From positions 16,161,107 through 16,225,106 of the forward strand of contig JAVIAB010000047.1 in NCBI GenBank assembly GCA_032433765.1: a stretch of DNA of 64,000 bases, in the 5' to 3' direction. The stretch is from Megaustenia siamemsis (taxonomy: Eukaryota; Mollusca; Gastropoda; Stylommatophora; Ariophantidae). Position 1 is the stretch's first letter, and the number at the start of each line of letters is the position of its first letter. Below, one piece after another: positions 2,546 through 32,900 of this stretch. A program made the position numbers and the translations under genes. Under the pieces are notes generated by a model that was given only the letters and a program-made list of their open reading frames with translations, searched no databases and had not been told where the DNA came from.

Positions 2546-2664
2546 TTCAGTATTTGTGGAAAAAAAACTTACCTAGTCTTATTTCCTGTTATGTTCCATC
2601 ATGCAAACACAAATTGAAATTTGACCAATGAGAATGCTCATAACTTACACTTGACCTAGCCTAC

Positions 2665-2787
2665 CTGTAGCTTGTCCTCATCCATGAGTATCCGAGCGAG
2701 GTTAAACAGGCAGGAGATCTTGGTGCCATCATGAAGTCTAGGGTCCTTCAACCCTGATGTGTCAAGGTCAGCACAGTGACTGTAAAT
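2665..2787 (-). CDS. TMTC2: TMTC2 exon 7 (TPR linker; last exon in window)
   Basis: Acceptor ATTTTTATAG, donor GTAGGC. Encodes IYSHCADLDTSGLKDPRLHD then GTKISCLFNLARILMDEDKL. The LKDP-x-x-H...SCL-x-NL spacing matches TMTC2. A second in-frame AG (TTTACAG) eight bases inside the exon would break the frame. Later exons must lie left of position 1. Confidence 0.9.
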
Positions 2788-5700
2788 CTATAAAAATTTG
2801 AAACAAGAAAATTAAATGATCTCCTGTCAAACCACAAATGTCAGGTGACAGTGTCACTTATTAAGACATGACATTGTTTTAATAATCATTGCCATAATAA
2901 GAATGACATCACTCATAAATCATTATGTTATCAATCTATATGCTGCACTTTCAAGTCGAATACAGCTGAAAGGCTAGCAATTCTAGACTCTATGTCTAAC
3001 GATCATTGCTATTTAGTGACACACTTTGCACAGGCCTTGCATTGTGTCTTGCCACACATTCCAGTTCCAGGCGAAGCTCTCAACCTTGGGAAGGGAGCTA
3101 ATGCCTGTTGTTGCTTCTTGTCTCAGTGTTGTTTTTATTGTTTCTCTAGGTCAACCTTTTTTTTCTTATACACTCTGGTTCCCGTTTGAGGGCCTGCTTT
3201 CAGATTCTCTTGCTGTTTTTTCACATCACATGGCCAATATATGACCACTTCATTTTCTTGAACACAAATCATAATGTTGAATGCTTAAAGGTATATTCTC
3301 TCAAAAATCTTGGGGTGTGACCTACCTTCTTGGCTTGGTCTGTGTCCCCTTGCTGAGCTGCCAGGATGGCCAGGTTAAGATGAGCAACTGAAATAGAGAG
3401 TGCTGTGTTATCCAGTCATCTTCCTCATAAGCAAGTAGATAAATATGCAGTGTACAACCCACAACCAAGGTACAGGAGATAAAATGAAGAAGATGCAGAC
3501 AGAAATAGAGTAGGAGAGTAAAGAAAGTGAAAGAGCATCAGATAGATAATCTAGTCTACTCAAGTTAACAGGTCATCTTCAGTGTAAACAGACTAACTCC
3601 ATAGTGTTCAGATCCCCTCCTCAACACCTTCCCCTGTACGAAACTCTCTCGACATACAATAGCAAAAACACCAAATATGGCTTTAGCTAAGATGCATGAA
3701 CTCCACAGCATTGGCAAAGACCTTGACTCCATACCTCATTAGTCACATCTTATGACAAGCATATCATGTGACAATGTCTCTATTCTTTATTCCCCTGACC
3801 ATGGTAAGAGTCCTGATAGCTACATGAGTGAGATAGTTAATCTACCAGACTCTATGCTGTCTACAGCGGAGGGCAGATAAACCCAAATAAAGTTTTCTTC
3901 CTTCAAGAAAGTAACAATAATTTACCAGTTAAATCAATCTATGGATATGATAGATTAACTAACAAGGAAAACTAATTTTTTTTTTAGCTTGAAAAAAAGG
4001 AAATTAATAACAAATTAATTTTGTAACAAACCAAAATAATAAATTATACTTTGGAAAATGATCTTCTGTTTTCAAGATGGTGGAATAGAGTTTATGCTCC
4101 ATTGACTGCTGCAGGATTTCTGCTTGGAGACTGATTACTTTCAGTTCTCTAATGCAGAATTCTATGTTAAAGTCAAATAGATGTTCCACTTAATCGATTC
4201 ACAATGGTGCTACTGGGTCCATGTACCTGGCAGTGGTGCTCTTTGGCAAATAAAGTAATGTGAATGTCACCTACATCCATCGTGAAGTCAATATGTGGTT
4301 TACATCATCACATTGAGAGCTGCTGTTCAATAACGGTCGTTGGATTTGTTTGATGCCATTGCTCACAGCTGCTTAACATAGATTATTCTGCCAAGTCAAC
4401 CAAAGATTCCACTTTAGGGATTTTACATCATCTCTACGGTGTTTTGTGCATTTTTGACTGAATTCTTTGGAGTCGATTGAGCATTGTGGGCGCATCCATG
4501 GTTGGTTTGTGCTACATCATCATGACATTAACAGCATGTTCAATAACTAACACTGGAATTGTTCAGCACCAATTACTTACAAGTTACAGCTCCTTAATAT
4601 GGATTGTTCTGCCAAGTCAACCGAAGATAACAACTAGAGGATTCTGCGCTATTGCTACAGAATTTTGTGAATTTTGGCCACATTTTTTGGAGTGGATTAG
4701 GTGTTGTGGGCACATCCATTGTTGTTTGTGCTACGTCATCATGACAGATGTTTGTATATCCCTAAACCAAACCGTACACTCATAATGAAGGGCGAAACGA
4801 TGAAGTTTTGTTCATGAATTTACAGCCCTGGTGCAACTCTTGGATTTTTATCTAGTCAGGTGGAATGTTGCTGAGATTAAGGAGAGGTACGAGGAAATTG
4901 GGGGTAAACTTATTAACTAATTTATCACTTCACACTGTGGGTCTTGCTGCAGAGGAGATCTGTTATTATGGACTGTTTTCTGATGTGCAATGAGGACAAT
5001 TTGATGACTAACTAACTAAATGGGAAATCACTTTAGTCAAAAGCACTAGCACTTCCTGTGGAGCATTGGTTTACATTTTTCCAGTCTTGAACCAACCTTC
5101 CCAGTTCTTCTCCAAGTGAAGCAATAATAACAAATATTTGTTATTTTGGGGAAACTCTGAGGCTTTGCTTTAGGCTGCTTATTATTTTGTGTTTTCTGTT
5201 GCTGTTTGTGCATTTTTTTCTGAAAGTGTTCCTGTGTAATTTTTATTTCTTTTCCATATCTTCGATCTCTATTATATATCTGCTTCTAACTTATCTTCTT
5301 GTATCTTTTACAATCTTTATGTGATTAAGAGACAGAGAATGTCCTGTAAATTACAATAACACAAAAGATTGAAGTGTTAAATTTCATCTTAACGGGCCAT
5401 AGCATTTTCAGATGAGGTGGCCAATGTTGTCTTCACAGCTATTACCTTTCCTAACTCACAGAGTTGGTTAATAAATCTTTTTTTACCTGGTTGAACAGGA
5501 AAGTATCAGGTTAAATTAAATCCATATTTACCTATGCACCATCCATAAAAACAATATGCGGCATGCAGATGACACAGTCTTAATAACAGAGACAGAATGA
5601 ACTATAAGAAATGATAGACATAGTAGTAAAATAAAGCAAAAAGAAAAGTCTCAGTCTGAATAGTAAGAAAACAGAAGTAATGATCATATCAAAGAAATAA

Positions 5701-8700: not shown

Positions 8701-11700
8701 ACCCTATTCCTCCTGTCATCATTACTTATTGTCTTCACCATATTCCTCATGTCATCATTACTTATTGTCTTCACCATGACCCTATTCCTCCTGTCATCAT
8801 TACTTATTGTCTTCACCATATTCCTCATGTCATCATTACTTATTGTCTTCACCATATTCCTCCTGTCATCATTACTTACTGTATTCACCATGACCCTACT
8901 TCTGTAATCATTACTTATTGTCTTCACCATGACCCTATTCCTCCTGTCATCATTACTTATTGTCTTCACCATGACCCTATTCCTCCTGTCATCATTACCT
9001 ATTGTCTTCACCATGACCCTATTCCTCCTGTCATCATTACTTATTGTCTTCACCATGACCCTATTCCTCCTGTCATCTTTACTTATTGTCTTCACCATAT
9101 TCCTCCTGTCATCATTACTTATTGTCTTCACCATATTCCTCCTGTCATCATTACTTATTGTCTTCACCATATTCCTCCTGTCATCATTACTTATTGTCTT
9201 CACCATACTCCTCCTGTCATCATTACTTATTGTCTTCACCATATTCCTCCTGTCATCATTACTTATTGTCTTCACCATGACCATATTCCTCCTGTCATCA
9301 TTACTTATTGTCTTCACCATGACCATATTCCTCCTGTCATCATTACTTATTGTCTTCACCATGACCATATTCCTCCTGTCATCACTACTTATTGTCTTCA
9401 CCATATTCCTCCTGTCATCATTACTTATTGTCTTCACCCTACTCCTCCTGTCATCATTACTTATTGTCTTCACCATATTCCTCCTGTCATCTTTACTTAT
9501 TGTCTTCACCCTACTCCTCCTGTCATCATTACTTATTGTCTTCACCCTACTCCTCCTGTCATCATTACTTATTGTCTTCACCCTATTCCTCCTGTCATCA
9601 TTACTTATTGTCTTCACCCTACTCCTCCTGTCATCATTACTTATTGTCTTCACCATATTCCTCCTGTCATCATTACTTATTGTCTTCACCATATTCCTCC
9701 TGTCATCATTACTTACTGTATTCACCATGACCCTACTTCTGTAATCATTACTTATTGTCTTCACCATGACCCTATTCCTCCTGTCATCATTACTTATTGT
9801 CTTCACCATGACCCTACTCCTCCTGTCATCATTACATATTGTCTTCACCATGACCCTATTCCTCCTGTCATCATTTCTTGTCTTCACCATGACCCATCTC
9901 CTGTCATCAATACCAGTGGTTAAATTCTAAATGAATAACTTCCCCATCCTATGAATAATGATCATAAATGTAGGGTAATTGCTAGACATGTAGCGAGATA
10001 CAATATGGGTCCTGTGCAAGGTCTGACACTTCATAACAAAGATTGTTGGACATGAAGTCTAAAATGTCTGCTGTGTACTGTCTTTGGCTCAAAAGGACAA
10101 TAAAGATAGATAGAATTACAAAGAGAAGTCAATGGGGAAATGCAGAGGAAGGGAAGCAGAAGAGGAAAAGGAAGAAGAATTGGAAGTCTTCTTCTACCTT
10201 TTTAGCTCCCAGTGGAGCATAGGTCTTCAACAAACACTTTCCAAGTCGTTCTGTTTTTTGCAATTCTTTTAAGATCATTCCATGTCTTCCCCATCATCTT
10301 CATCTCTGCTTCAATCTGTCTTCTCCAAGAATTCCTTGGTCTTCCTCTTTGTCTTTTCCTCTGGGGATTCCAAAAAAGGGCCTGTTGTGTAATACTCTCA
10401 GTTGGTTTCCGTAGTGTGTGTCCTATCCATCGCCATCGTCTTCGCTGTATTTCTTTATCCACTGGTATTTGACCGGTACATTTCCATAATTCCACGTTAG
10501 TGACTTTGTCCTGCCATTTCCATCCCTTTATTCTGCGCAAGCATCCATTAATGAAAGTCTGTACCTTCGTGATTGTCAATTTTGTTATTCTCCATGTTTC
10601 ACAGCCATATAATAGAACCGACTTAACATTGGAGTTGAAAATTTGTATTTTTGTATTTAGCCTAATTTCTTTGGATTTCCATATGTTTCCCAGTGCAATG
10701 AAAGCTCCTCTTGCTTTTGATATCCTTATTTTGGTATCGTTTTCTGTTCCTCCCTCTTTATCTATATTACTGCCCAGATATATATAAGATTGTACGTCTA
10801 GTAGAGGTATTTCTCCTAGTTTTATTTGGTTATTGCCAACTGCATTAATTCTCATAATGTTGGTCTTATCTCTATTAATCTTTAGTCCTAGCTGTTGTGA
10901 TCTCTCATCTAATATACTCATTTTATCTTGCATCTGTTGGTGGCTGTGTGATAGGAGAGCTATGTCATCAGCAAAGTCTAAATCATCAAGTTGTTTGGTC
11001 AGTGACCACTGGATCCCATTTCTGTTGTTTTGAGTTATTTTCATAATCCAATCTATGGCCAGTAGAAAGAGAAATGGAGACAGAAGGCATCCTTGCCTTA
11101 CTCCTGTTCTTATTTCAAATGCTTCTGTAAGCTGTCCTTCATGCACCACACTACATTTTGTTCCTTCATACATTGTTTTTATCAGGTTAATAAACTTTAT
11201 GGGGATTCCATAATGACTCAGCAACTTCCAAAGCATTCTTCTGTCTAAACTATCAAATGCCTTTTCGTAATCTATGAATTCAATATAAAGTGGGGATTTT
11301 AGTTCTAAACTTTGTTCAACTATTATACTATTATACGTAAAGTAGTTATTTGATCAGCAAAGAATTGGAAGTGGAGGAGGAAAAAGAAGAGGAAGTGGAG
11401 AAGGAAGAAGATAAAGAGTGGGGGAGATGGAGGAGCGAAAGAAGGTGAAGAAAAGCAAGAAGAGGTGTAGAAGTAGAAGAAGAGGAGGTATGGAAGAAGA
11501 AGAGGAGGATATGGTGAAGTAGACAGAGAAGAAAAAAGAAAAAGTAGAAGAGAAAAATCAGAAGAAGAAGAAGAGGAAGCAGATGAAGAAGGAGAAGGGA
11601 ATGATTAGATGTAATAGGAAGTTAAAGAACAAATATGATAGATATGAACAAATAACACGAGATCTGCTGGAAGACCCAAATCAACAAAAAACTTTTGACC

Positions 11701-14700
11701 CTACCTAACCAGACTCTACAAACCTGGGCTCACCTTTCGCTGGGTTGACACTGATTCCTGCAGCATAAAGTCTTTCCTCTGTCCTCCAGTCAAGGTTCCG
11801 CAGCATCGTTTTAACACTGAAGGTCATTACCAGTAATGCTAGAGCAGACAGCACTAGTCTTTTCCGGAAGCTGCTATTAGAACTCTTGTACAAAAAATCC
11901 ACACCTAGACCTACCAATAAACAAACACCCATGCTGGGAATGTACAATATCCGTTCTGCGATAACAAACCCAACATAGAAAAACAAATTGGAAGCTGGAA
12001 TGAATGGGAACACAATTAATGCCAGGGAGAGAACAACAACATCAACTGGTCGAATTCTCAAGATCAAGAATGACTGAAAACTGTTATCTGTGGACATGTT
12101 AGTTGATCTGCCCCTGTGGCTTTCTGTTGAATTTTTAGATTTGGAATGAATTGAATTAGTTATATTGGAATGCTTATTTGATTTTGAAAATCCATTGGAA
12201 TGTGGAATGTAACTTTGATTTATTTCTGGAACATTGTCAGCAGTAGACTCCACGTATGTTGTTCCTGAACCATGTTGACCATACTTTTTTGTTACAATTT
12301 TCATTTTATTTGGGACAGTCTGGCTGTCTTGCTGCTGTAATAACATAGATATTTTCAAGAATGTATACAGACAAACACCATAAAACGCCAGTGTGGATAG
12401 ATTCCGTATGTCGCTCAAGCTCTCCACAAGTGGAATAGCCTCCATGGACCAATCAAAGCTCAACACACTGGGGCACAGCACCATCCACAAGTTTACTGAG
12501 GGGAGATAATGATATGTAAGTGTCCTGGTCAACAGACTGTCCGAGTCTGAAGCTGGGTTATCTGATGGGGCAAACTCTGGTGGCTTGTTGCCCATGAAGT
12601 AGATCCTCATGGTCAGCAATGTGAAGCCGTACACGGTCAACAGAAAGAGACCCTCCAGTAACGACCTGAACTTTGTCTGGTTGGATGGGACAAGAGAAAA
12701 AAATATATCAATCAAAGCATAAGTAATTTATTAACCCTCTCTTGCTCTTTCTCCCATCCCTCTCTCTTTCCCTCTCTAACCCCTCTCCCTCCCTCTCTGG
12801 ATCCATGATAACTCACTCTCTCTCTTTCTCACTCACTTTTTTTCCTTACTCCTCTTATATCCCTTAGGTAAAGTGACCATATTCTCCAAACAGTAACCTG
12901 GGTCAGGGACCAAATTAAAAAAAAAAAAAAAAACGTGGACAGGGGATTATATAATGTGGTCAGTCCCATGGAAGGACATATTATAAGTAAGTGAAAGCTC
13001 CTTCTACACCTTGCTGGGCATACAAGGAATATGGTGTTAGTGACCATAATTTTCAATGACCACAGCACATTTTTGGGCGATGTGGTTGGTATCACGCCAG
13101 GCCGCCTTTACTTCCCAGGTATATCACAGGTACCCATTTTTAGAGGCTGGGTGAACCCTGGAGACTTGTCAATCAGAAAAAAAAAATCTTGCTACTTCTG
13201 AGTATCAAACCCAGGCCTTTCTGATCAGGAAGTGAACACACTAATCACTCAGCCACCGAGGCTCCTCATATCAGAGGGCAGAATTTAAAATATCTCCTTC
13301 TGGCTCATTCCATGGCCATTCTTCACAAAATGTCTCCATGTCAGACTCGTACATCGTATTTATTTCACAGACTTCCGGTATATGGTGGATAGGCGGCGGG
13401 AACATGAAAAATGTTCCTTGTTGCAGTTTCCTCATATTCCAAGTCCGGCTCGTTGCAGGAGCTACTGAGTTAAGTGCTCTGTGCACACCGTGAGCTGTGT
13501 GTCTCATCCGTTTTGATCATGTTTCGATATTCCATTTGTTTGCGATGAATGATGATATTGTATGACAGGGAACAGTTGGCTGTGTTCACTTTCTGCACAG
13601 TTTCGCCGTATGTCTTTTGGCGTGTGCTGAGACTGCAACGATGGGGACTACAGTTACCTTTCTTTGTTTGGGAGATGAGATATTAATTCGGATGATTATG
13701 CTGGCACCAGCGGTTGAGCAATTATGAATTTTAATTCGTTTGCATTGATACCAGGGCCTTCCATAACCAAATAACCAAATTTATTTCACAACTGCTCAAA
13801 ATCAGGTCACCTCTGGAGAAGGACTGGATGGTCTAGAAGTAAGATGTCAGCATCTGGAGGATTGGGTGGTCTAGAAGTAAGGTGTCAGCATCTGGAGGAT
13901 TGGGTGGTCTAGAAGTAAGATGTCAGCATCTGGAGGATTGGGTGGTCTAGAAGTAAGATGTCAGCATCTGGAGGAATGGGTGGTCTAGAAGTAAGATGTC
14001 AGCATCTGGAGGATTGTGTGGTCTAGATGTAAGATGTCAGCATCTGGATGATTGGATGGTCTAGAAGAAAGATGTCAGCATCTGGAGGATTGGGTGGTCT
14101 AGAAGTAAGATGTCAGCATCTGGAGGATTGGGTGGTCTAGAAGTAAGATGTCAGCATCTGGAGGAATGGGTGGTCTAGAAGTAAGATGTCAGCATCTGGA
14201 GGATTGTGTGGTCTAGATGTAAGATGTCAGCATCTGGAGGATTGGGTGGTATAGATGTAAGAAGTCAGCATCTGGAAGATTGGGTGGTCTAGAGGTAAGA
14301 TGTCAGCATCTGGAAGATTGGGTGGTCTAGGGGTAAGATGTCAGCATCTGGAGGATTGTGTTGTCTAGATGTAAGATGTCAGCATCTGGAGGATTGGATG
14401 GTCTAGAAGTAATATGTCAGCCTCTGGAGGATTAGATGGTCTAAATGTAAGATACCAGCATCTGGAAGATTGGGTGATCTAGATGTAAGAAGTCAGCCTT
14501 TGGAGGATTGGATGGTCTAGAAGTAATATGTCAGCCTCTGGAGGATTAGATGGTCTAAATGTAAGATGCCAGCATCTGGAAGATTGGGTGGTCTAGAAGT
14601 AAGATGTCAGCATCTGGAGGATTGGATGGTCTAGAAGTAAGATGTCAGCATCTGGAGGATTGGGCGGTCTGTAAGTAAGACGTCGACATCTGGAGGATTG

Positions 14701-17700
14701 GGTGGTCTGTAAGTAGGACGTCGACATCTGGAAGATTGGGTGGTCTGTAAGTAAGATGTTGACATCTGGAGAATTGGATAGTCTATAAGTAAGATGTTGT
14801 CATCTGGAAGATTGGGTGGTCTATAAGTAAGATGTCGACATCTAGAGGATTGGGTGGTCTATAAGTAAGATGTCGACATCTAGAGGATTGGGTGGTCTAT
14901 AAGTAAGATGTCGACATCTGGAAGATTGGGTGGTCTATATGTAAGATGTCAACATTTTGAAGATTGGGTGGTCTATAAGTAAGATGTCGACATCTAGAGA
15001 ATTGGATGGTCTATAAGTAAGATGTCAACATCTGGAAGATTGGATGGTCTATAAGTAAGATGTCGACATCTAGAGGACTGGGTGTTCTATAAGTATGATG
15101 TTGGCCTCTCAAGGATTGGGAAGTCTATAAGTAAGATGTCGGCCTCTGGAGGATTGGGTGGTCTATAAGTAAGATGTCGGCCTCTGGAGGATTGTGCAGT
15201 CTATAAGTAAGATGTCGGCCTCTGGAGGATTGTGCAGTCTATAAGTAAGATGTCAGCCTCTGGAGGATTGAGCAGTCTATAAGTAAGACGTCGGCCCTTG
15301 GAGAATTGGGCGGTGTATAAGAAAGACGTCGGCCCTTGGAGAATTGGGCGGTGTATAAGTAAGACGTCGGCCCTTGGAGAATTGGGTGGTTTATAAGTAA
15401 GACGTCGGCCCTTGTAGAATTGGGTGGTCTATAAGTAAGACGTCGGCCCTTGGAGAATTGGGTGGTCTATAAGTAAGATGTCAACCCTTGGAGGATTGGG
15501 TGGTCTATAAGTAAGATGTCGGCCCTTGGAGGATTGGGTGGTCTATAAGTAAGATGTCGGCCCTTGGAGGATTGGGCGGTCTATAAGTAAGATGTCGGCC
15601 CTTGGAGGATTGGGCGGTCTATAAGCAAGATGTCGGCCTCTGGAAGATTGGATGGTCTATAAGTAAGATGTCGGCCCTTGGAGGATTGGGTGGTCTATAA
15701 GTAAGATGTCGGCCCTTGGAGGATTGGGCGGTCTATAAGCAAGATGTCGGCCTCTGGAAGATTGGATGGTCTATAAGTAAGATGTCGGCCCTTGGAGGAT
15801 TGGGCGGTCTATAAGCAAGATGTCGGCCTCTGGAAGATTGGATGGTCTATAAGTAAGAAATCAGCCCTTGGAGGATTGGGTGGTCTATAACTAAGACGTC
15901 GGCCTCTGGAGGATTGGGTGGTCTATAAGTAAGACATCGGCCCTTGGAGGATTGGGCGATCTATAAGTAAGATGTCGGCCTCTGGAGGATTGGGTGGTCT
16001 ATAAGTAAGATGTCAGCCCTTGGAGGATTAGATTGTCTATAAGTAAGATGTCGGCCTCTGGAGGATTGGGTGGTCTATAAGTAAGATGTCGGCCCTTGGA
16101 GGATTAGATTGTCTATAAGTAAGATGTCGGCCTTTGGAGGATTGGGTGGTCTATAAGTAAGACGTTGGCCCTTGGAGGATTGGGTGGTCTATAAGTAAGA
16201 TGTCGGCCCTTGGAGGATTGGGTGGTCTATATGTAAGATGTTGGCCTCTGGAGGATTGGATGGTCTATAAGTAAGATGTTGGCCCTTGGAGGATTAGATT
16301 GTCTATAAGTAAGATGTCGGCCCTTGGAGGATTAGATTGTCTATAAGTAAGATGTCGGCCCTTGGAGGATTGGGTGGTCTATAAGTAAGATGTCGGCCCT
16401 TGGAGGATTAGATTGTCTATAAGTAAGATGTCGGCCCTTGGAGGATTAGATTGTCTATAAGTAAGACGTCGGCCCTTGGAGGATTGGGTGGTCTATAAGT
16501 AAGATGTCGGCCCTTGGAGGATTGGGTGGTCTATAAGTAAGATGTTGGCCCTTGGAGGATTAGATTGTCTATAAGTAAGATGTCGGCCCTTGGAGGATTA
16601 GATTGTCTATAAGTAAGATGTCGGCCCTTGGAGGATTGGGTGGTCGGCCTCTTTGGATAAGTAAGACGTCGGCCCTTGGAGGATTGGGTGGTCTATAAGT
16701 AAGATGTCGGCCCTTGGAGGATTGGGTGGTCTATAAGTAAGATGTTGGCCTCTGGAGGATTGGGTGGTCTATAAGTAAGACGTCGGCCCTTGGAGGATTG
16801 GGTGGTCTATAAGTAAGATGTTGGCCTCTGGAGGATTAGATTGTCTATAAGTAAGACGTCGGCCCTTGGAGGATTGGGTGGTCTATAAGTAAGATGTCGG
16901 CCCTTGGAGGATTAGATTGTCTATAAGTAAGATGTCGGCCTTTGGAGGATTGGGTGGTCTATAAGTAAGACGTTGGCCCTTGGAGGATTGGGTGGTCTAT
17001 AAGTAAGATGTCAACCCTTGGAGGATTGGGTGGTCTATAAGTAAGATGTCGGCCTCGAGGATTAGATTGTCTATAAGTAAGATGTCGGCCCTTGGAGGAT
17101 TAGATTGTCTATAAGTAAGATGTCGGCCCTTGGAGGATTAGATTGTCTATAAGTAAGACGTCGGCCCTTGGAGGATTGGGTGGTCTATAAGTAAGATGTT
17201 GGCCTCTGGAGGATTAGATTGTCTATAAGTAAGATGTCGGCCCTTGGAGGATTAGATTGTCTATAAGTAAGACGTCGGCCCTTGGAGGATTGGGTGGTCT
17301 ATAAGTAAGATGTCGGCCTCGAGGATTAGATTGTCTATAAGTAAGATGTCGGCCCTTGGAGGATTAGATTGTCTATAAGTAAGATGTCGGCCCTTGGAGG
17401 ATTAGATTGTCTATAAGTAAGACATCGGCCCTTGGAGGATTAGATTGTCTATAAGTAAGACATCGGCCCTTGGAGGATTAGATTGTCTATAAGTAAGATG
17501 TCGGCCCTTGGAGGATTAGATTGTCTATAAGTAAGACATCGGCCCTTGGAGGATTAGATTGTCTATAAGTAAGATGTCGGCCCTTGGAGGATTAGATTGT
17601 CTATAAGTAAGATGTCGGCCCTTGGAGGATTAGATTGTCTATAAGTAAGACATCGGCCCTTGGAGGATTAGATTGTCTATAAGTAAGATGTCGGCCCTTG

Positions 17701-20700
17701 GAGGATTAGATTGTCTATAAGTAAGACATCAGCCCTTGGAGGATTAGATTGTCTATAAGTAAGACATCGGCCCTTGGAGGATTAGATTGTCTATAAGTAA
17801 GATGTCGGCCCTTGGAGGATTAGATTGTCTATAAGTAAGATGTCGGCCCTTGGAGGATTAGATTGTCTATAAGTAAGACATCGGCCCTTGGAGGATTAGA
17901 TTGTCTATAAGTAAGATGCCGGCCCTTGGAGGATTAGATTGTCTATAAGTAAGATGCCGGCCTTGGAGGATTAGGTTGTCTATAAGTAAGACATCGGCCC
18001 TTGGAGGATTAGATTGTCTATAAGTAAGATGTCAGCCCTTGGAGGATTAGATTGTCTATAAGTAAGACATCGGCCCTTGGAGGATTGGGTGGTCTATAAG
18101 TAAGATGTCGGCCCTTGGAGGATTGGGTGGTCTATAAGTAAGATGTCGGCCCTTGGAGGATTAGATTGTCTATAAGTAAGATGCCGGCCCTTGGAGGATT
18201 AGATTGTCTATAAGTAAGATGTCGGCCCTTGGAGGATTAGATTGTCTATAAGTAAGATGCCGGCCCTTGGAGGATTAGATTGTCTATAAGTAAGATGCCG
18301 GCCCTTGGAGGATTAGATTGTCTATAAGTAAGATGTCAGCCTCTGGAGGATTGGGTGGTCTATAAGTAAGATGCCGGCCCTTGGAGGATTAGATTGTCTA
18401 TAAGTAAGACATCGGCCCTTGGAGGATTAGATTGTCTATAAGTAAGATGTCGGCCCTTGGAGGATTAGATTGTCTATAAGTAAGATGCCGGCCGTTGGAG
18501 GATTAGATTGTCTATAAGTAAGATGTCGGCCCTTGGAGGATTAGATTGTCTATAAGTAAGATGTCGGCCATTGGAGGATTAGATTGTCTATAAGTAAGAC
18601 ATCGGCCCTTGGAGGATTAGATTGTCTATAAGTAAGATGCCGGCCCTTGGAGGATTAGATTGTCTATAAGTAAGATGCCGGCCCTTGGAGGATTAGATTG
18701 TCTATAAGTAAGATGTCGGCCCTTGGAGGATTAGATTGTCTATAAGTAAGATGTCAGCCCTTGGAGGATTAGATTGTCTATAAGTAAGACGTCGGTCCTT
18801 GGAGGATTGGGTGGTCTATAAGTAAGATGTCGGCCCTTGGAGGATTGGGTGGTCTATAAGTAAGATGTCGGCCCTTGGAGGATTAGATTGTCTATAAGTA
18901 AGATGCCGGCCCTTGGAGGATTAGATTGTCTATAAGTAAGATGTCGGCCCTTGGAGGATTAGATTGTCTATAAGTAAGATGCCGGCCCTTGGAGGATTAG
19001 ATTGTCTATAAGTAAGATGTCGGCCCTTGGAGGATTAGATTGTCTATAAGTAAGATGTAAGCCTCTGGAGGATTGGGTGGTCTATAAGTAAGATGTCGGC
19101 CCTTGGAGGATTAGATTGTCTATAAGTAAGATGTCGGCCCTTGGAGGATTAGATTGTCTATAAGTAAGATGCCGGCCCTTGGAGGATTAGATTGTCTATA
19201 AGTAAGATGTCAGCCTCTGGAGGATTGGGTGGTCTATAAGTAAGATGCCGGCCCTTGGAGGATTAGATTGTCTATAAGTAAGATGTCGGCCCTTGGAGGA
19301 TTAGATTGTCTATAAGTAAGACATCGGCCCTTGGAGGATTAGATTGTCTATAAGTAAGATGTCGGCCCTTGGAGGATTAGATTGTCTATAAGTAAGACAT
19401 CGGCCCTTGGAGGATTAGATTGTCTATAAGTAAGACATCGGCCCCTGGAGGATTAGATTGTCTATAAGTAAGATGTCGGCCCTTGGAGGATTAGATTGTC
19501 TATAAGTAAGATGCCGGCCCTTGGAGGATTAGATTGTCTATAAGTAAGATGTCGGCCCTTGGAGGATTGGGTGGTCTATAAGTAAGACATCGGCCCTTGG
19601 AGGATTGGGCGATCTATAAGTAAGATGTCGGCCTCTGGAGGATTGGGTGGTCTATAACTAAGACGTCGGCCTCTGGAGGATTGGGTGGTCTATAAGTAAG
19701 ACATCGGCCCTTGGAGGATTGGGCGATCTATAAGTAAGATGTCGGCCTCTGGAGGATTGGGTGGTCTATAAGTAAGATGTCAGCCCTTGGAGGATTAGAT
19801 TGTCTATAAGTAAGATGTCAGCCCTTGGAGGATTAGATTGTCTATAAGTAAGATGTCAGCCCTTGGAGGATTAGATTGTCTATAAGTAAGATGTCGGCCT
19901 CTGGAGGATTGGGTGGTCTATAAGTAAGATGTCGGCCCTTGGAGGATTAGATTGTCTATAAGTAAGATGTCGGCCCTTGGAGGATTGAGTGGTCTATAAG
20001 TAAGATGTCGGCCCTTGGAGGATTAGATTGTCTATAAGTAAGATGTCGGCCCTTGGAGGATTGAGTGGTCTATAAGTAAGATGTCGGCCCTTGGAGGATT
20101 AGATTGTCTATAAGTAAGACGTCGGCCCTTGGAGGATTGGGTGGTCTATAAGTAAGATGTCGGCCTCTGGAGGATTGGGTGGTCTATAAGTAAGACGTCG
20201 GCCCTTGGAGGATTAGATTGTCTATAAGTAAGATGTCGGCCTCTGGAGGATTGGGTGGTCTATAAGTAAGATGTCGGCCCTTGGAGGATTAGATTGTCTA
20301 TAAGTAAGATGTCGGCCCTTGGAGGATTAGATTGTCTATAAGTAAGATGTCGGCCCTTGGAGGATTAGATTGTCTATAAGTAAGATGCCGGCCCTTGGAG
20401 GATTAGATTGTCTATAAGTAAGATGTCGGCCCTTGGAGGATTAGATTGTCTATAAGTAAGATGTCGGCCCTTGGAGGATTAGATTGTCTATAAGTAAGAT
20501 GTCAGCCTCTGGAGGATTGGGTGGTCTATAAGTAAGATGTCGGCCCTTGGAGGATTAGATTGTCTATAAGTAAGATGTCGGCCCTTGGAGGATTAGATTG
20601 TCTATAAGTAAGATGCCGGCCCTTGGAGGATTAGATTGTCTATAAGTAAGATGTCGGCCTCTGGAGGATTGGGTGGTCTATAAGTAAGATGTCGGCCCTT

Positions 20701-23700
20701 GGAGGATTAGATTGTCTATAAGTAAGATGTCGGCCCTTGGAGGATTAGATTGTCTATAAGTAAGATGTCGGCCTCTGGAGGATTGGGTGGTCTATAAGTA
20801 AGATGTCAGCCCTTGGAGGATTAGATTGTCTATAAGTAAGATGTCGGCCCTTGGAGGATTGGGTGGTCTATAAGTAAGATGTCGGCCCTTGGAGGATTAG
20901 ATTGTCTATAAGTAAGACGTCGGCCCTTGGAGGATTGGGTGGTCTATAAGTAAGATGTCGGCCCTTGGAGGATTAGATTGTCTATAAGTAAGACGTCGGC
21001 CCTTGGAGGATTGGGTGGTCTATAAGTAAGATGTCGGCCCTTGGAGGATTGGGTGGTCTATAAGTAAGATGTCGGCCTCGAGGATTAGATTGTCTATAAG
21101 TAAGATGTCGGCCCTTGGAGGATTAGATTGTCTATAAGTAAGATGTCGGCCCTTGGAAGATTGGGTGGTCTATAAGTAAGATGTCGGCATTTGGACAGGC
21201 AGGTCCTGGGTTTAAATATCACCACAGGTAGTGGGAATTTTTAAAAAATTTAATCCATTGTTTCCTTGTGGCTTTAATCTCTCCTGGACTCGGTAGTGAG
21301 ATCTGAAGGCTAGCTCTTTCACACAACAGCAAATAAAAAAACAAACAGGAGGTTCCTTGTGCACTTGTACATCGTTAATAAACCCTATGCAGTTGTTGTT
21401 CATGGATCCAGTGACCTGTGAGCTGACACCCTTCTGTCAAAAGCCACGTAATGATACCAGTAGGTATTTCTAAGTTCACTTGTAAGTTCAAAAAAGGTAT
21501 TCAGTTTAATAGAGTCTTGGTAGTTAAAAGTCAAAAAGAGTAGACCAAAGAATTGTCACTGCCAGGTCAAAAATTGTTAAGCAAATCTACTCATGTTAAA
21601 GATGGATGTGTCGAGGCTAAAGACATAGATATCGGAGCTTTGCCATGAACTAGTGACACGAAACATCAACGCCCACTTAACAGGGACGAGCTAAGAAAAA
21701 GAGATGAAGTAGTGATTGTTTTTTTTTGTTTTTAAATGTTGGATTTTCTTATCTGAATAAAATGGCATTTCGTTATGCTAGTTGGAATTTTTTAGCTGTT
21801 GGAATTTTTTAGCTATTCTTGAAAAAGATCATTTCTTTGTTGTCATAGAATTGATCTGCTCTGAAATGAACTTTTTTTTGCTATTTAGTGGAAATGTATG
21901 TTTTCTATTGAAAGAAAAATCATTTTTATTTGTTTTAAGGACATTTCTCGATTCTGATGTCACTTGTCATTAAATAGAGAATTCATTTCTCAGAGAAGAA
22001 CACACTTTCTTTATTGGAGATTTTTTTGTCATTGTTTGAGTGTCCTTGGATAGACATTTCTGATATTTATTCTTGTCATTAGTAAGAACATACCTGTGTC
22101 AATATCCTGCAGGTAAGAATGTCCATAAAAGAAGCTCTGTGGGCTACAAAGACTTCAAATGTGGCACACACGGCCAGAACTGTCAAAGCCTGCTCTTTGT
22201 TCAACATGGCAGCTGTTGTCAGCAACAACACCAGGCCAGCCAACAGCCACCGTGACAAAAGGTGGCCTGAATTCCTGACCCCAACGTACTTCATGTAACT
22301 CAGCAGCGTTAGCAGAAAAAAGGCACATGCTAGCACGTCTGCTCGGCCAACAATCCCGGCCACCGCCTCAGTATGGATCGGGTGAGAAGCAAACACGACT
22401 CCAGCAGTAAGAGCTGCCAGCTGAGAAGGCAGCAAGACCTCAGCCAGAACTGTGAAGAGAAAAGTTGTGCTTGCATGACAAATGATATTGCCAAGGTGGT
22501 AACCCCATGGGTCTAGCTGCCCCAGCAAGTAATTCAGTCTGAAGGTGAGGACACAAAGAGGTCTGTAGGACTTGTGTGATCCACTGTGAACTAAGGGTGT
22601 TCCCCAGAAGTCGTTGTAGAAGAGGTTCCATAGAGGCGTCTCTGGCAGCAGGTCTGGATTCTTCACAATGGCACGACTAAAAGAAGATATGAAAAATTAA
22701 ACATAAATTGTATATAACAGCTTAACTAAAAGGAAGACCGAACAAAAAAATTAACATAAGATTGAATATAACAGTTTAAGAAAAAAGTAGACAACAAAAA
22801 ATAAACATAAAATTGTATGTAACGGCTTACCAAAAAGGTAGACAGAACAAAAACATAAACAAAAATTTGTGTGTAACGGCTTAACAAAAGGTAGACAGAA
22901 TATAAAATAAACATAGATTGTATATAATAGCTTAACTAAAATGAACACCAAATTTAAAAAAATAAACATAAAATTGACTATAACAGTTTAACAAATAGGT
23001 AGACAGAACAAAAAATAAGCATAAAATTGTGTGTAACGGCTTAACGAAAAGGTATGGCCTTTGGCGTCTTGACATACGGTTGGTAGTAAGCAATCATGAT
23101 AAGTCAGTAGTTTGGTAAAGCATTAGCGTGGTTCACTAGGTGCTGCTTTACTGAACATCTTCTCTCGTGGCTGAATTTGCCAAATTCTGGACAGACAGAT
23201 CCGTCCACAATTCCCTCAAGGAAGCCCTGCAAACATCCTTATATCTCAGCACCGATCTGTCCTTTGGTCTCTTTCCGTCCTTTAGTTCTCCATACAATAT
23301 TTGTTTGGGAATATGATTGTTTGTCATTCTTCTTACATGGCCCAGCCACCTTAGTCTACGAATCCTAAGTGTTGCCATGATCGATGGGAGTTTGGCTTGT
23401 TGTAAGACATTAGAGTTAGTTACTTTGTCCTGCCATTTGATATTCATAATCTTACAAAGGCAACGTACATGAAAGCTGTTTAACCTTTTCTCCTGCCCTG
23501 CATAGGTAGTCCAAGTTTCTGATCCATATAGAAGTGTACTAAGCACACAACTTTGGTAAATTTGAATCTTAGTCCTAGTAAATTTGAATCTTAGTCCTGA
23601 GTGTTAAATTGGTGTTGGCCCATGCACTATCTTTAAGTTTACCAAATGTAGAAGCTGCCTTTCCAATTCGGGAATTTATTTCTTCTTCAAGGAAGACATT

Positions 23701-26700
23701 GGTTGTGACCATAGAACCGAGATAGGTGAACTTTCTCACAGGTTCAAGGGGTATATTATTTAATGATATAGCTGCGGGGCTGGCTACAACTTGTTGAAGC
23801 ACCACAGTCTTCTGGATACTTATTGATAGGGAGAATAATTCACATGATCTAGCTAGATTGTCAATCATTGACTGCAGGACGGATTCATCATGAGCAACCA
23901 GTGCTGCATCATCAGCGAATAGAAGCTCCTTGATTAGGGTCTCAGTTGTTTTTAATTTTGACCTCAGACGTGCAAGATTGAATAAGGAGTCGTCAGATCT
24001 TGTACACATGTAGATGTCTCCAGTGACGGTTTCAAACGCATTGTGTAGAAGGGCAGCGAAAAATATGCCGAATAGAGTAGGGCAAGGACACATCTTTGTT
24101 TGACTCCACAGTTCATCTCAAAGGGCTGGGAAGATCTACCGTTGAACTGGATGATGGCAGACATATCAAAAAGGTAGACAGAACAAAAAAATAAACATAA
24201 AACATTGTGTGTAAGGGCTTAATATAAACATAGACAGAACAAACAATGAACTATGTTTCCGTGCATTTGTAAAGAAAAAAACACAGAGAAGATAAAAACA
24301 CAAAGAAGATAAAAACACAGATACATAAAGAAAACTTTTAACAAAAAAAATTAACTGATATGACAAGAAAAATGTTAACTGCATACAAATATTTAGTTTA
24401 TGAACAATCTCTTGGTTCTATTTTGGTACAACTACTTGGTGAGGCAACCTGCGGTGCAGAAGTGGTTGGCAAACTAGGCGAAGTGCTTAGGTTTGCAGTA
24501 AACCTGTGATATTTGCGCCTTTTGGCCAAACACATCCGACTTCAGCATGACATGTTTGAGTACCGGGTTGTTTTCCCTCCTCGATCCCTACTCGCTTGGC
24601 CAGACTAGACAGGTTAGTCTGTTTCTGGAGGCACTACGAAGAGGTGGAGTAGGATCTGGATGGTTCTGGTTTACCTATCCTGGTGTAAGCCATCAGCTAT
24701 GGGTCGCTGACAACTCCACAGGTCTGCTGTGAATCGCCTTTGCCACCGCCTGTGGATTCAATTTGGGTGTTCTCTCATAGCACTTTCCTACTCTCGATAG
24801 TAAAGCTAGACTATGTCCCTCAACGTGCAGCGACTAACGAGACCAGTATTGTGTTGGTTTCTAGCTATCTTTCCTCTGAAACCTCAACCATTGTCATGTG
24901 ATGATGATGAAAAGCTTCCCTGACATTGTCACTCCATCTTGCTCGAGATATTCCTCAATCTCTTCTTCGGGGTGACTGGTTGGTCTCGAGGTTAGCCGTC
25001 GGTCTCAAGATGGAGAGGTTGTGAGTTCAAATCCTGGCTGCACCAGTTGGAACTTTTATTTATGATTTCTCTCTGCAGCAACCACCCTTTGTCTAAGCAG
25101 GCCTGGCCTGAAATGTCAAGTACTCATTTACAGAACAAATATTAGTACCTTTGAAGGCGGAGTTATCTGTTTGTGCGGTGAGGAACCACTGTTGTAGTGT
25201 TGGCATGGCTTGCAGGAAAAAATGGATTAATACGCAAAATTCAGCTCCTAGTCTCTAGGGACTTCACTAGAGGTGAAAGCTCATCATCATCATGTGCCTT
25301 ACCGGTTGGCGTAGGTGATCATGTCCCTCCACAATCTTCTATCCACAGTGCATCATATCAGTTCTGTTGTTGACTGTTTTCCATGCCATGACACCAAGCT
25401 ATCCAGTATTTTCTCTCTTTGTCGTCCGCGATCTCTTTTTCCTTTTATTTTGCCAGTTGTAACCAAGTATTCCAACTTTCCTCTTCTCATGATGTGCCTG
25501 AAAAATGTTGATTGCTTATTTCTGATGTTTTTTAACAGCTCCCATTTTGTGTTGGCCTCCTTGAGAACTTCCTCATTGGTCTTTTTATCTGTCCAGGGAA
25601 CTTTCAACATTCTTCTGAGAAATCCCATCTCTGTGGCCTCCAATCGTCTTTTCATTTGAAAGCTGGCAAACGCAAAACTTTTCTTTTTCATCCTCTCTTT
25701 GAAAATCATCACTCACTCTTCCATTCTTGTTTTTGGAAGATCAACTCTCAGTCTCTCTAGACCAAATATCAGCATCCATCCAGAGCAACTTTAGGCCTCT
25801 AGATTTACTATCAAGATTAACTTCTCAGTCTCTCTAGATCAACTATTAACCTCCATCCAGAGCAACTTTAGGCCTCTAGATTTACTATCAAGATTAACTT
25901 CTCAGTCTCTCTAGATCAACTATTAACCTCCATCCAGAGCAACTTTAGGCCTCTAGATTTACTATCAAGATTAACTTCTCAGTCTCTCTCTAGATCTACT
26001 ATCAACATCCATACAGACTAACTCTCAGTCTCTCTAAAATCAACTATCAACTCCCACCAGAATCTCGATCAACCATCAAGCACTCTCCAAAGATAACTCT
26101 CTGTCAACTTCTCCATAAATTTAAAAAAAAAAAAATAAATAATCTCATTTTTTTCTCGCCTGCATATTAAAAACTAAACCTCCTTTAAATCAACTCTCAA
26201 CATACTACCTCCCTCTCTATTTGAAGATAAACACACCTCCTCCCCGACAGGTCACACACCTGTGCTATTTGCAACACTTTCCGCTCTCAGGTGAGATAAC
26301 AACACCAAGCCCCCAGCATGTTTACCCATCTGACTGACTAGTGTGTGCCTTACGGGCCTTGGGAAGGTGTGTGTGAGATCACAGTGACGCCTAGTTCTCA
26401 CAGAACAGGTTCTAACCATCCTCAACTAACAGTTAAAATTTGCTCAAGTTTCCTGCCTTGAATTACTTGTTCGAGTCAGACAGATCGCTTCATTCATTGG
26501 GTGCCGTCTCCACATCGAAGGTTGACTACCATGGAGCGTCATTTTTCTCTCTCTTTCTCTCTCTCGTCTTGATAGTGCATGCTGCCATAGTTTCACCTGT
26601 CCATTGTTTGATGTTATCATCATCGAGTGCCGTCTCCGCATCGAAGGTTGACTACCAAGAAGCGTCATTTTTCTCTCTCTTTCTCTCTCTCGTCTTGATA

Positions 26701-26958: not shown

Positions 26959-29900
26959 CTTTGAAGGTGCATGTTGTCATAGGCTGACTTGCCCATCTAT
27001 TGATGTTACTCGTCAACATTATCTTGGTCTGCTCTGTCTCTTTTACCTTGTATTTTCTCTTCCAAGATTACTTTTATTAGGCTGCCCTGTCTTTTAACAT
27101 GCCCCAAAAATCCCATTTGCCTTGTTTGAATTGTATTTAGTAGTTCTCTTTTCATTTTTTTAATTTGTAAAAATGTTTTTAACATCATTTGATGGTATCA
27201 GTCCACTCTAATCTTCGCCTGCCTCTGACTCGTCCACTTTGCTACTTTCCTTCCAAGACAAGATGACTTTTAGTGGGTATTGTGTCTCTTCACATGTCCA
27301 AGAAGACGTTCTTAAAACGTACTTTCTCGGAAAAGTGTATATCTCCAGCTTCTAAACTTTCCCTTCCTCATTTAACTTCTAGCGTCGAGAAAGCAGTAGT
27401 CTTTTGTTCTTTGACTGACTTTTTTCTGCTGCTATTTTTCCGAATTCTTCAAGTTTTCCCATCTGCCCATTTTTCACAAGAACAGCATCTTGTTCTGTCC
27501 TTTTCGTGGGATTTGTGCATTGTTGCTGGTTGTGTGGATGGTTTTTTTTAGTTTTCCTGTCTTGTCAACCTCCATCCAGATCAACTCTCAGTCTCTCTAG
27601 ATCAACTATCAACCTCCGTCCAGAATCCAGATCAACCAACTTTCAACCACTCTTCAAAGATAACTACTCAGCCACTCTGTCAACTACTCAGCCACTCGAG
27701 CACAAAAAGACAGAAGTAATTGTAGCAACAAAGAAAAAGACATTACCGCAACGCACACACAAAATACAAAAAACAAATGGAATTAAAACAGATAAATGAA
27801 TTTAAATATCTGGGAATAATGTTATTGGGGGAAAATGAATTTGTAGAACAAAAAAAAACGGTAGAGCAAAACTTATGGGTTGTTGGAATCATGGAAGCAT
27901 TGGTGAGCTATAGTTCGAGAAGCACTGAACATTTAATTCACAATTCGGTATTTCCGTAGTTCCTGAGAAACATAATCGCTGGCAAGTCATTTGATGAGAC
28001 GCTATTTTGTCGCTCTGTTTTCACCCATGTTAAAAAGACCACATTCAAATGCTAAGTGTACACACGTACGCGATGACGACAAGTTTACTGAACATTGGCG
28101 CTTTTTATTCGGAACACGTTCCAAATTCTCTCGGTCGGCGACCGCCGTTATTAACGACGGAGGTCAGTTTATTGAATGGCGTGAATCACAGACCGTGGCT
28201 CCGTCGCTACGTCGTGGTGGGAGTCGACGATCGGTGTTTAGAGGAAGCAGTAGATTGGTACAGGATTTATCGGAGTGTTGAAGCACAGCCAACTATACTT
28301 CTCTTAATAGATTGGTAGATTCTCTTAGTAGATTGGTACAGGATTTATCGGAGTGTTGAAGCACAGCCAACTATACTTCTCTTAATAGATTGGTAGATTC
28401 TCTTAGTAGATTGGTACAGGATTTATCGGAGTGTTGAAGCACAGCCAACTATACTTCTCTTAATAGATTGGTAGATTCTCTTAGTAGATTGGTACATGAT
28501 TTATCGGAGTGTTGAAGCACAGCCAACTATACTTCTCTTAATAGATTGGTAGATTCTCTTAGTAGATTGGTACAGGATTTATCGGAGTGTTGAAGCACAG
28601 CCAACTATACTTCTCTTAATAGATTGGTAGATTCTCTTAGTAGATTGGTACAGGATTTATCGGAGTGTTGAAGCACAGCCAACTATACTTCTCTTAATGT
28701 TCTGAATTCTGGTCGCAGCATATGGCACCCCACAAGAGATCTCCATCAAATCCGGTCTGGAGCAAGCATGGACAACTCTCGCCATAAGCTGCCAGTCTCA
28801 TTCAATTTATCATGTATGGTTCATCGTCATGTCTCCAATGGTCTACCTCTACTTTGTTAGCCAGGTAGTGCCCATGTTCATTGTGCCCATGACGAACAGA
28901 GAAAAGTCAAATGGAAGTCACTGTCCCGACAAGGTCCATGATCACCTCCAAGCAACTAATAAGAATTGCAACATGGAAAGTGAAAACAATGTATGAAACA
29001 TGCAGGACAGCTCGGGTGATTCAAGAGATGAAGGGATACAACCATGATAGTTTAGGTCTAAGTGAAGTGAGATGGACAAGAAATGGGAGATACAGAACGG
29101 TAACTGGAGAAACCAAATTTTATTCTGGAAGAAGTGAAGTGGACAAGAAATGGGAGATACAGAACGGTAACTGGAGAAACCAGAATTTATTCTGGAAGAA
29201 GTGAGGTGGACAGGAAATGGGAGATACAGAACGGTAACTGGAGAAACCAAATTTTATTCTGGAAGAAGTGAAGTGGACAAGAAATGGGAGATACAGAACG
29301 GTAACTGGAGAAACCAAATTTTATTCTGGAAGAAGTGAAGTGGACAAGAAATGGGAGATACAGAACGGTAACTGGAGAAACCAAATTTTATTCTGGAAGA
29401 AGTGAAGTGGACAAGAAATGAGAGATACAGAACGGTAACTGGAGAAACCAAATTTTATTCTGGAAGAAGTGAAGTGGACAAGAAATGGGAGATACAGAAC
29501 GGTAACTGGAGAAACCAAATTTTATTCTGGAAGAAGTGAAGTGGACAAGAAATGGGAGATACAGAACGGTAACTGGAGAAACCAGAATTTATTCTGGAAG
29601 AAGTGAAGTGGACAAGAAATGGGAGATACAGAACGGTAACTGGAGAAACCAGAATTTATTCTGGAAGAAGTGAGGTGGACAGGAAATGGGAGATACAGAA
29701 CAGTAACTGGAGAAACCAGAATTTATTCTGGAAGAAGTGAAGACCAACATCATGAAGGAGTTGCTGTAGTTGAGAACAAACAGACGTCGAAAAGTCTCTT
29801 AGAGTGGGAACCCATCAATTCACGCATAGATTTACCTAGAAGACAAATAACAATAAATCATTATTATAATGAGCGGAAACTTTCAGAGTCGACAGATCAA

Positions 29901-32900
29901 CGAACCATTTTAGGGAAATGGGGGGGGGGGGGGAACTGGTTGGTCTCGAGGCAAGACGCCGGCTTCGAGACGGAGAGGTTGTGGGTTCAAATCCCGGCTA
30001 CACCGGGATTTTTATTTATGATTTCTCTCTGCGGCAACCACCCCTGGTCACAGAAGCGAGGCTCGGCTTGAAACGTCAATTACTCATCGACGGTAAAAAT
30101 ATGAGTACCTCCGAAGTCGGAGTTATCTGCATGTGCGGCGAGGGACCCTTGTGCACACAGCTGCCAGGGGAAAATGGATTAACACGCAAAATTCAGTTCC
30201 TAGTCTCTAGGGACTTCGTCAGAGGAAAAGTTGGCGAACGAAAAAATAAATAAATAAAAATTTCAGACGAAGAGCTATATTTACAACACTCGGAAAAACC
30301 CACAAAATAATCAACAGAAAAAAAACGTATAGATTTACCAAGGCCTGCGAGCGAAGAGAAAATTCCCGGGAAAACTTCCAACTAGTGTGACGTTTTCAGT
30401 TCTGCGAGCAGGGTCGGGTTTTTGGATAGTGTGACGTCAGTCGTCTATAGTTCACATAGCTGAAAACCGTCACGCTAGTTGGACTGTTTTATAAATCTAT
30501 AGTTGGCTGTTGTTGAAGAAGAGGCCCACAAATGTCATTCTAAAGTCAGGCCGTCGGTTGATTTGTGTAGAGAGTGGGTTGTGTTTATTTGACGTGAAAT
30601 GTTAATGTTTGCTGTAAGTGTGACAGGTTCCTGAAATAGGTGGCGACTGGTAGGTCGCTGCCTCCTGAAATAGGTGGCGATTGGTAGGTCGCTGCCTCCT
30701 GAAATAAGTGGCGATTGGTAGGTCGCTGCCTCCTGAAATAGGTGGCGATTGGTAGGTCGCTGCCTCCTGAAATAAGTGGCGATTGGTAGGTCGCTGCCTC
30801 CTGAAATAAGTGGCGATTGGTAGGTCGCTGCCTCCTGAAATAGGTGGCGATTGGTAGGTCGCTGCCTCCTGAAATAAGTGGCGATTGGTAGGTCGCTGCC
30901 TCCTGAAATAAGTGGCGATGGGTAGGTCACTGCTTCCTGAAAAAGGTAACGATGGGTAGGTCACTGCCTCATGAAATAGGTGGCGATGGGTAGGTCACTG
31001 CCTCATGAAATAGGTGACGATTGGTAGTCACAACTTCCTGAAATAGGTGGCGATGTTTAGGTCACAGCCTTCTGAAATAGGTGGCGATGAATAGGTGACA
31101 GCCTCCTGAAATAAGTGGCGATGGGTAGGTCACATCCTCTTAAAATAGGTGGCGATTGATAGGTCACTGCCTCCTGAAATAGGTGGCGATGGGCAGGTCA
31201 CATCCTCCTAAAATAGGTGGCGATTGATAGATCACTGCCTCCTGAAATAGGTGGCAATTGGTAGGTCATAGCCTCCTAAAATAGGTGGCGATGGGCAGGT
31301 CACATCCTCCTAAAATAGGTGGCGATTGATAGGTCACAGCCTCCTGAAATAGGTTGCGATGGGTAGGTCACAGCCTCCTGAATTAGGTGGCGAAGGGTAG
31401 GTCACAGCATCCCGAATTAGGTGGCGAAGAGTAGGTCACAGCCAACAATAGATTTTCCAGGGCCCGGTGGCAGAAAATAAAACCGGAAAACCCTCCAGCC
31501 AGCGTGGCGTGTTCAAATATAGGATATATATAGACGATGACTTTACTCTATCCACAACCACCTTTGCTTTCATAGCTGAAAACGTCACGCTAGTGACGGT
31601 TTTTTAGGAATTCCTTTTCAGTCCGCAGGCCTAAGTAAATCTAGAGCTGGTTGTGGATAGGTCATCATAGAAAATATAACAGTATCCTTGACCTCAGTGT
31701 TATCATTTTTTTTTAAAAATGGTGGTTTGGGGGAGAGAGTGAGACAAGGCGCCTGACAGCAGCAGAGTTCAGAGACTTATAACTGGCGGGAGGATCGATG
31801 AGCCAGAACCATCTAGACTCTACTCCACTTGTTTACGATGTCTCTAGAAACAGACTAACTAATTTAGTCTGGCTAAGCGAGTAGGAATGGATGCGGTATA
31901 GAAACTTGGTACTAAAAAGATGCCTTATTGAAGTCAAATGCGTTGGGCCAAAAGGAGCAAAAAAAAAAAAAAAAGAACGACACAATGTGCATCTTCGCTA
32001 ACTTAATGTCCTTTTAAGGACGGTTCATGAAGAGAACTATAAATAACTTTAGTAATCATCAAGTCAAAGTCAGACAGAAAGAAAGAAAGAAAGAAATAAT
32101 TCATTCATATTCATTCGTTCATATGACGACTACTGTCCATTGTCCACCCTTTCAAAACGCCGTTCATTTATTTTATTTTATTATTTTTTTTTTTGCGTAC
32201 GCCAGCTTTTTACCTCTGACGAAGTCTCTAGATGCTATGAACTGAATTTTGCGTGTTAATCCGTGTTTCCCTGGCAGCCGTGTGTTCAGGGGTCCCTCGC
32301 CGCACAGGCAGATAACTCCGTCTTCGATGGTACTCATATTTTTACAGTCGATGAGCAATTGACGTTTCAAGCCGGGCCTTGCTGCTGAGACCAGGGGTGG
32401 TTGCCGCAGAGAGAAATCATAACTAAAAAATTCCACTGGTGTAGCCGGAACTTGAACCCACAACCTCTCTGTCTCGAGGCCGGGGTCTTGACTCGAGACC
32501 AACAGTCCCCCGGCCGTTCATTTGATGGAGATCTACATCGATCATCATCTAACTTGTCCTTGTTGGAACATGGCTCCAATGACAGCTACTCAAACGTTTT
32601 CCCTGTCCTGCTCGACATGGCCAGGGTGAAAAGATAACAAATAAAACGAAATAGTAATTTGGTTTTGTGTTGCCCCTCACCTTCGTAAATCTGTAAAGAT
32701 ACTATTTTATTATGTTTTTCTTTCCATTCTTACCGTCAGCTTTACAACAGCTTAACATGTTTATACCTGTACTCCTTTACTCGAGATGGTCAGTATCTGA
32801 AGTACTCTTCTTCTTAGTGTTCATCCGTTTAGTGGGCGTTGTTGCGCTTGTTGCTAGTTGTGCGCCTTTAAGGCCCGACACTACTCGGCGTCTGTATGTC

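Follow-up and report, generated by a model that had tools for sequence, protein, structure and literature searches.

A 38-bp minisatellite that very probably grew in place from one SINE copy, and head arrays of other periods at further copies of the family, in the gastropod Megaustenia siamemsis

Tandem repeats derived from short interspersed elements (SINEs) have been described in several systems. SINE-derived satellites (sSats) were reported in squamate reptiles by Vassetzky et al. 2023 (PMC10702118), and Alu- and B1-derived minisatellites by Jurka and Gentles 2006 and Bois et al. 1998 (via PMC6947457 and PMC9659126). In human, tandem repeats derived from transposable elements are common according to Ahmed and Liang 2012 (PMC3389668), with the known starting mechanisms fitting only ~6% of them. 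Here we describe a minisatellite with a 38-bp unit in a 64,000-nucleotide stretch of the Megaustenia siamemsis genome (assembly GCA_032433765.1, contig JAVIAB010000047.1, positions 16,161,107 to 16,225,106; the window). The array, at window positions 13820-21195, very probably grew in place from one inserted SINE, through a duplication near the 5′ end of the element followed by slippage or unequal exchange, and tandem copies of the same SINE head with differing unit lengths are found at 21 other loci. SINE-derived arrays as such are already known; what sets this case apart is a 5′-anchored family of apparently separate starts.

Several features of squamate sSats are found here as well: the unit is a part of the SINE, a longer terminal unit continues to the SINE end, more than one region of the same SINE supplies units, and the arrays occupy many loci per genome and are of unequal length (PMC10702118). 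In the squamates a few dominant and likely subtelomeric unit types are described, whereas the head arrays of this gastropod have many unit lengths between 20 and 51 bp, start at the 5′ end of the element and in two cases include bases from upstream of the SINE. The human repeats are likewise minisatellites built from parts of mobile elements, among them 136 in which part of an Alu adjoins the 5′ end of a complete one, but they mostly have few units (PMC3389668); here the units reach ~190, and different starts within a single family can be set side by side. The Alu and B1 minisatellites also represent SINE segments grown in place, ascribed to short direct repeats (PMC6947457, PMC9659126); the present arrays involve another element and another animal group, and the 5′ junction is a frequent edge. 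A tRNA-related region of a SINE-like element has also become a tandem repeat in Satellite 1 of Xenopus and Hy/Pol III of Hydromantes, which are named satellite families (PMC9659126), unlike the separate arrays described here, each in its own SINE copy. Among the titles and abstract openings listed by a literature search, with most subscription journals outside its reach, there was no mollusc case and no 5′-junction class whose units contain host bases.

The main array and the elements needed to interpret it are as follows.

13820-21195, plus strand: 38-bp minisatellite of ~194 copies, unit corresponding to SINE consensus 3-40 (Tandem Repeats Finder (TRF), segmentation, shuffle tests)
21159-21702, plus strand: SINE copy carrying the main array (blastn, 80% identity in both parts)
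21208-21220, plus strand: lone degenerate B-box-like stretch at the right end of the array (motif match)
33927-34000, minus strand: unexpanded SINE head, the reference copy of the earlier comparison (sequence comparison)

A first-pass annotation of this DNA had proposed that some 190 copies of a 38-bp unit grew in place from one SINE copy, and the present results support that proposal, as one case of many. TRF reports a period of 38, 194 copies and 90% matches, and our own segmentation gives 193 unit starts, with 187 of the 192 spacings at 38 bp (three are 36, one is 37 and one is 86). The agreement of the unit with the minus-strand head at 34000-33934 was also reproduced, at 25 of 28 bases (89.3%), the 28 bases being the conserved part of the 38-bp period. 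The SINE was sought in the window's own genome (2.59 Gb, 155 contigs). From 2453 first-look candidates a set of 40 was scored and sequences were retrieved for 30, one of which was the window's own copy, and the consensus was built from the remaining 29 with the window's copy left out. It has ~412 bases, starts with GGGGACTGGGTGGTCTAGAGGTAAGATGTCGGCCTCTGG, and carries an A-box-like TRGYNNARNGG at base 11 and a B-box-like GGTTCRANTCC at base 54. The array unit aligns to bases 3-40 of this consensus with 32 of 38 bases identical (0/200 shuffles as good) and a score of 52, compared with 30 for the best of 500 dinucleotide shuffles (0/500 as good), so the annotation's expectation of a SINE consensus holding the unit is borne out.

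At the right edge the last unit passes uninterrupted into the SINE, first its B-box side and then its body, as had been described. The SINE itself extends farther than the annotated end at 21410, with consensus 4-231 at 21159-21394 and 222-411 at 21516-21702, and 121 bp of other DNA between the two parts. Within the array the 188 full-length units comprise 71 distinct sequences with a mean pairwise identity of 0.864. The leftmost 40 units are the farthest from the array consensus (0.81-0.83 vs 0.92-0.94 elsewhere). Growth by slippage or unequal exchange is suggested because identity is higher between neighbouring units (0.91) than between units at a distance of 100 (0.85).

Two further descriptions in the first-pass annotation stand in part. 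Derivation of the head from a tRNA is in keeping with the A- and B-box-like motifs of the consensus, but because Rfam covariance models gave no match at E<=1 in 10 retrieved SINE pieces the tRNA origin of the SINE is not confirmed; in the 64-kb window neither Rfam at gathering score nor ARAGORN reports a tRNA. Origin of the array from a promoter region is consistent with the A-box-like motif in the repeated segment, but only 2 matches to it are left in the array. The reading of the locus as an array of promoters was rejected on that ground, and a role in gene control or RNA polymerase III transcription is not indicated. Several SINE copies have long G runs at their 5′ end (29920-29935 in the window, and the loci designated L047, L060, L068 and L069). 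Another repeat with a SINE-like head is present in three copies 75-87% alike (29929-30225, 32208-32511 and 24969-25273), and head arrays were not seen there.

The first-pass annotation had asked for other SINE loci with expanded heads, and these exist. Head-array loci were found by mixed searches with a three-unit query (391 matches, part of them listed), a SINE query and patterns, and loci less than 5 kb apart were counted as one. Among the matches listed, the three-unit query revealed arrays at at least 12 places besides the main array; L036, L046 and L060 were added by the SINE search and L065, L067-L069 and L109 by pattern searches. Of four single places of a 28-bp pattern, L065 is an array and L063, L064 and L066 are single-copy SINEs. 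In all, tandem head copies occur at at least 22 loci, including the main array and a two-copy case in the window:

57180-57229, minus strand: 25-bp head duplication of two copies, within the SINE copy that also holds a 27-bp array (TRF 2.0 copies, 100%)

L172 is a probable 23rd locus. The unit lengths, 20-51 bp, differ between loci, and therefore the head arrays are not one dispersed satellite; copy numbers run from 2 (L060, 57180-57229) to ~190. An array lacking an adjoining SINE would count against the proposal; the array continues into a SINE at 18 of the 22 loci, at three (L026, L065, L067) the retrieved piece ends inside the array, and at one (L028) no SINE follows. Composite structures are also present: L027 has two separate arrays in one SINE copy, with 28-bp units in the head and 31-bp units in the body (4428-5084 and 2248-4320), and at L032 a single array (1813-4117) mixes 28-bp and ~51-bp units, each formed by a different junction of the one SINE head.

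In a tree of 61 SINE bodies, 16 of them array-bearing (L026, L028, L065 and L067, with no usable body, were left out), the array-bearing copies are scattered, and the nearest copy is one without a head array in 16/16 cases; supports are low. The head arrays would thus mostly have arisen independently of one another, in old SINE copies that had inserted separately. Their frequency was gauged in two samples drawn without regard to arrays. Among the 29 SINE-match copies three have tandem head copies and two (L047, L059) a 31-bp internal array; as hits were ranked by word sharing, this sample may be biased towards arrays. A second sample of 96 sites was drawn with a 25-base body pattern, one list giving 100 of 638 sites and 80 of 84 one-mismatch sites being retrieved (L036, L037 and L043 were already in the set and one was left out). 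Of these 96, 87 have a head by our own score cut-off and one has a head array (1/87, L109), or 2/90 if the three sites already in the set are added.

The edges of the head arrays point to the 5′ junction of the element. Relative to the SINE start, unit 5′ edges fall between -7 and +8, and 3′ edges are spread from 20 to 50. Over 17 junction classes, with the 28-bp loci merged to one, breakpoints entered by hand and ambiguous junctions placed by the author, the spreads are 3.9 (5′) and 9.1 (3′) (Levene p 0.007). At two loci the unit includes bases that stand upstream of the SINE: the L036 unit contains seven bases, ACAACTC, that also stand immediately upstream of the first copy, and the two-copy unit at 57180-57229 contains five, AGATA, found immediately upstream of the SINE start. 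Microhomology of at least 2 nt is present at 8 of 11 readable head junctions, L036 not being among those that have it (chance 4e-5 to 4e-4 under simple models), or at 5 of 8 with the shared 28-bp junction counted once (p 0.003-0.015). Microhomology of at least 5 nt occurs at 1 of the 11 (L024, 6 nt), and 6 nt are read at the array at 32873-33480; in the Haber-Louis model a minisatellite starts between short direct repeats of 5-10 bp (PMC6947457). G-rich minisatellites have been reported to be unstable in yeast (PMC2673046, PMC3486850, PMC5491262). The first 25 bases of the SINE have the top G4Hunter score of the windows scored, 1.32. A G-quadruplex as the cause is a suggestion only, since the 27-bp array is C-rich and the unit of the main array reaches 0.64 at best.

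Arrays derived from other parts of the SINE were recognized by comparing 28 of 69 TRF rows (period 20-140, at least 2.5 copies, score at least 150) with the consensus, using 200 shuffles each. Four of the 28 reached 0/200, each from a different SINE segment; besides the main array these are the following.

55891-57087, minus strand: 27-bp array of 44 copies, unit corresponding to SINE consensus 103-129 (24/27 identical, 0/200 shuffles)
1-815, minus strand: 32-bp array, unit corresponding to SINE consensus 211-234 plus 8 bases (24/24 identical, 0/200 shuffles)
32873-33480, minus strand: 43-bp array, unit corresponding to SINE consensus 265-295 with changes (24/30 aligned bases identical, 0/200 shuffles)

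The 27-bp array is flanked by a SINE head at 57199-57113 and a body at 55888-55653, both on the minus strand, and the 43-bp array lies inside one SINE copy (head 34000-33927, 3′ end 32859-32806), between consensus 178-286 and 357-411. The 1-815 array adjoins the 5′ edge of a SINE copy whose truncation lies near base 211, extends to the left of the window to a total of ~49 copies, and runs into consensus 211-409 at 82% identity (L166); the extra 8 bases of the unit match the flank at 6 of 8, a weak match. The 27-bp unit recurs at at least 24 further loci among the part listed of 299 matches; 12 of these loci were retrieved, 10 with SINE on at least one side and two (L173, L175) with none within the piece. 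A 31-bp internal unit is common to L027, L047 and L059. The internal 27-, 31- and 43-bp arrays are a separate class inside the SINE and may occur as often as head arrays do, a fair count being beyond the queries made. Short direct repeats are found at their edges: TGGT (7/8 around it), TCTC and TCGGGC in the 27-, 31- and 43-bp arrays. Repeat spacing fits units of 45 (CTGGGT), 27 (TGGT, with 7/8 over TGGTTTCT/TGGTCTCT) and 31 (TCTC). The consensus, however, holds 60 direct-repeat pairs of at least 4 nt at spacings of 18-60, so that chance pairs are plentiful, and for this reason such repeats are consistent with the internal edges without being predictive; as a predictor of unit length they were rejected.

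The sequence of events that we favour would begin with insertion of the SINE. A tandem duplication at the DNA level would then arise at or near the 5′ junction between host DNA and the inserted copy. Short microhomology, and perhaps also the G-richness of the 5′ end, would assist this step, and the array would subsequently grow by slippage or unequal exchange. The main competing source of a duplicated head is the insertion process itself. Non-long-terminal-repeat reverse transcriptases are capable of template jumping, and an enzyme at the 5′ end of the RNA could jump to an inner site and recopy the head before the array grows. Such a route, which we regard as improbable, would account for head arrays that start at the SINE 5′ end with 3′ breakpoints from 20 to 50, and for the short microhomology at 8/11 junctions. 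It does not account for internal arrays away from any 5′ end, and an RNA template would lack the bases upstream of the SINE that lie within the units at 57180-57229 and, less surely, L036; these bases led us to set template jumping aside as the main route. Duplication at the junction after insertion is thus favoured over template jumping because the starts are anchored at the 5′ end and two units contain upstream bases. Alternatively, a source SINE with a ready-made duplicated segment could have spread by retrotransposition, its copies growing later, as might be expected from the identical 28-bp junction at seven loci (L027, L029, L032, L065, L067, L068, L069) and the recurrence of the 27-bp unit at at least 24 further loci and of the 31-bp unit at three. 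Yet the five readable 28-bp bodies are 0.62 alike, compared with 0.69 for copies without head arrays, the 5′ ends of the first units differ, and no 27-bp dimer appears among 45 copies not picked for that unit; by the body tree and these absent dimers a mobile source is less likely, and we would give it a small chance.

Several observations nevertheless weigh against growth of the main array from a duplication at the 5′ junction. In our reading its left edge is a degenerate part-unit from ~13803 with no clean SINE 5′ end, and L028 is the one head locus of 22 without SINE on the right. Both would also be expected if a ready-made satellite array had entered a SINE or landed next to it, or had been exchanged with a SINE; this we consider very improbable, as the SINE carries on from the last unit in the same register, and periods differ at the other loci. 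The reading of the main array's junction reveals no microhomology. The L036 upstream bases could be a left part-unit, the B-box part is skipped at the right edge of L025, and L022, L025, L026 and others have filler bases without explanation. The tree also joins certain array-bearing copies as pairs (L024+L030, support 0.84; L036+L060, 0.66; L029+L046, 0.57). The mostly head-based queries used to find head loci favour units that hold the head. Finally, the 27-, 31- and 43-bp internal arrays start away from the SINE 5′ end, and so the 5′ junction is not the sole start. Duplication at or near the 5′ end could be taken one step further, to a tentative proposal that has perhaps one chance in three in our estimation: that minisatellites are born at the very junction where the 5′ end of an inserted SINE meets host DNA, from a first unit consisting of a few host bases and the first 20-50 bases of the element. 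It is possible, though again rather less than probable, that any part of the element at the junction would serve, whether the full head or base 211 of the truncated copy at 1-815.

The array had been placed in intron 2 of TMTC2, and TMTC2-like frames do stand on both sides of it.

11708-12727, minus strand: TMTC2-like coding frame carrying DUF1736, to one side of the array (domain and protein matches)
22082-22696, minus strand: TMTC2-like coding frame on the other side (protein matches)

Matches of the second frame include proteins named TMTC2, the top named ones being from gastropods (Batillaria, Plakobranchus). Because the array lies between these two frames, it would be intronic in a TMTC2-like gene, a placement that holds on the predicted frames. 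A reverse transcriptase frame (RVT_1) is present at 10205-11353 on the minus strand and a transposase frame (DDE_3) at 61277-62572 on the plus strand. Listed tandem arrays occupy 23,764 of the 64,000 window bases, most of them unrelated to this SINE. A 67-bp array of 10 copies at 29064-29742 has both flanks in one reading frame that resembles a long interspersed element endonuclease, a putative assignment with no match in Pfam. A 34-bp array at 30629-31443, whose unit is not SINE-derived, lies between inverted stretches at 30330-30490 and 31487-31643 (71% alike), as in a terminal inverted repeat or foldback element. The neighbouring arrays at 44335-45285 and 45781-46501 have units of 53 and 52 bp that are similar by eye.

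One SINE family that has given rise to arrays at dozens of loci, including four in the window, represents a natural experiment on the origin of tandem repeats, in which many probable starts from nearly identical sequence have led to anything from 2 to ~190 copies. Breakpoints, upstream bases and junction repeats can be compared across these events, and therefore the starting step is directly testable. If the 5′ junction is indeed a birthplace of minisatellites, repeated insertions of one SINE family would sow separate arrays with new periods across the genome.

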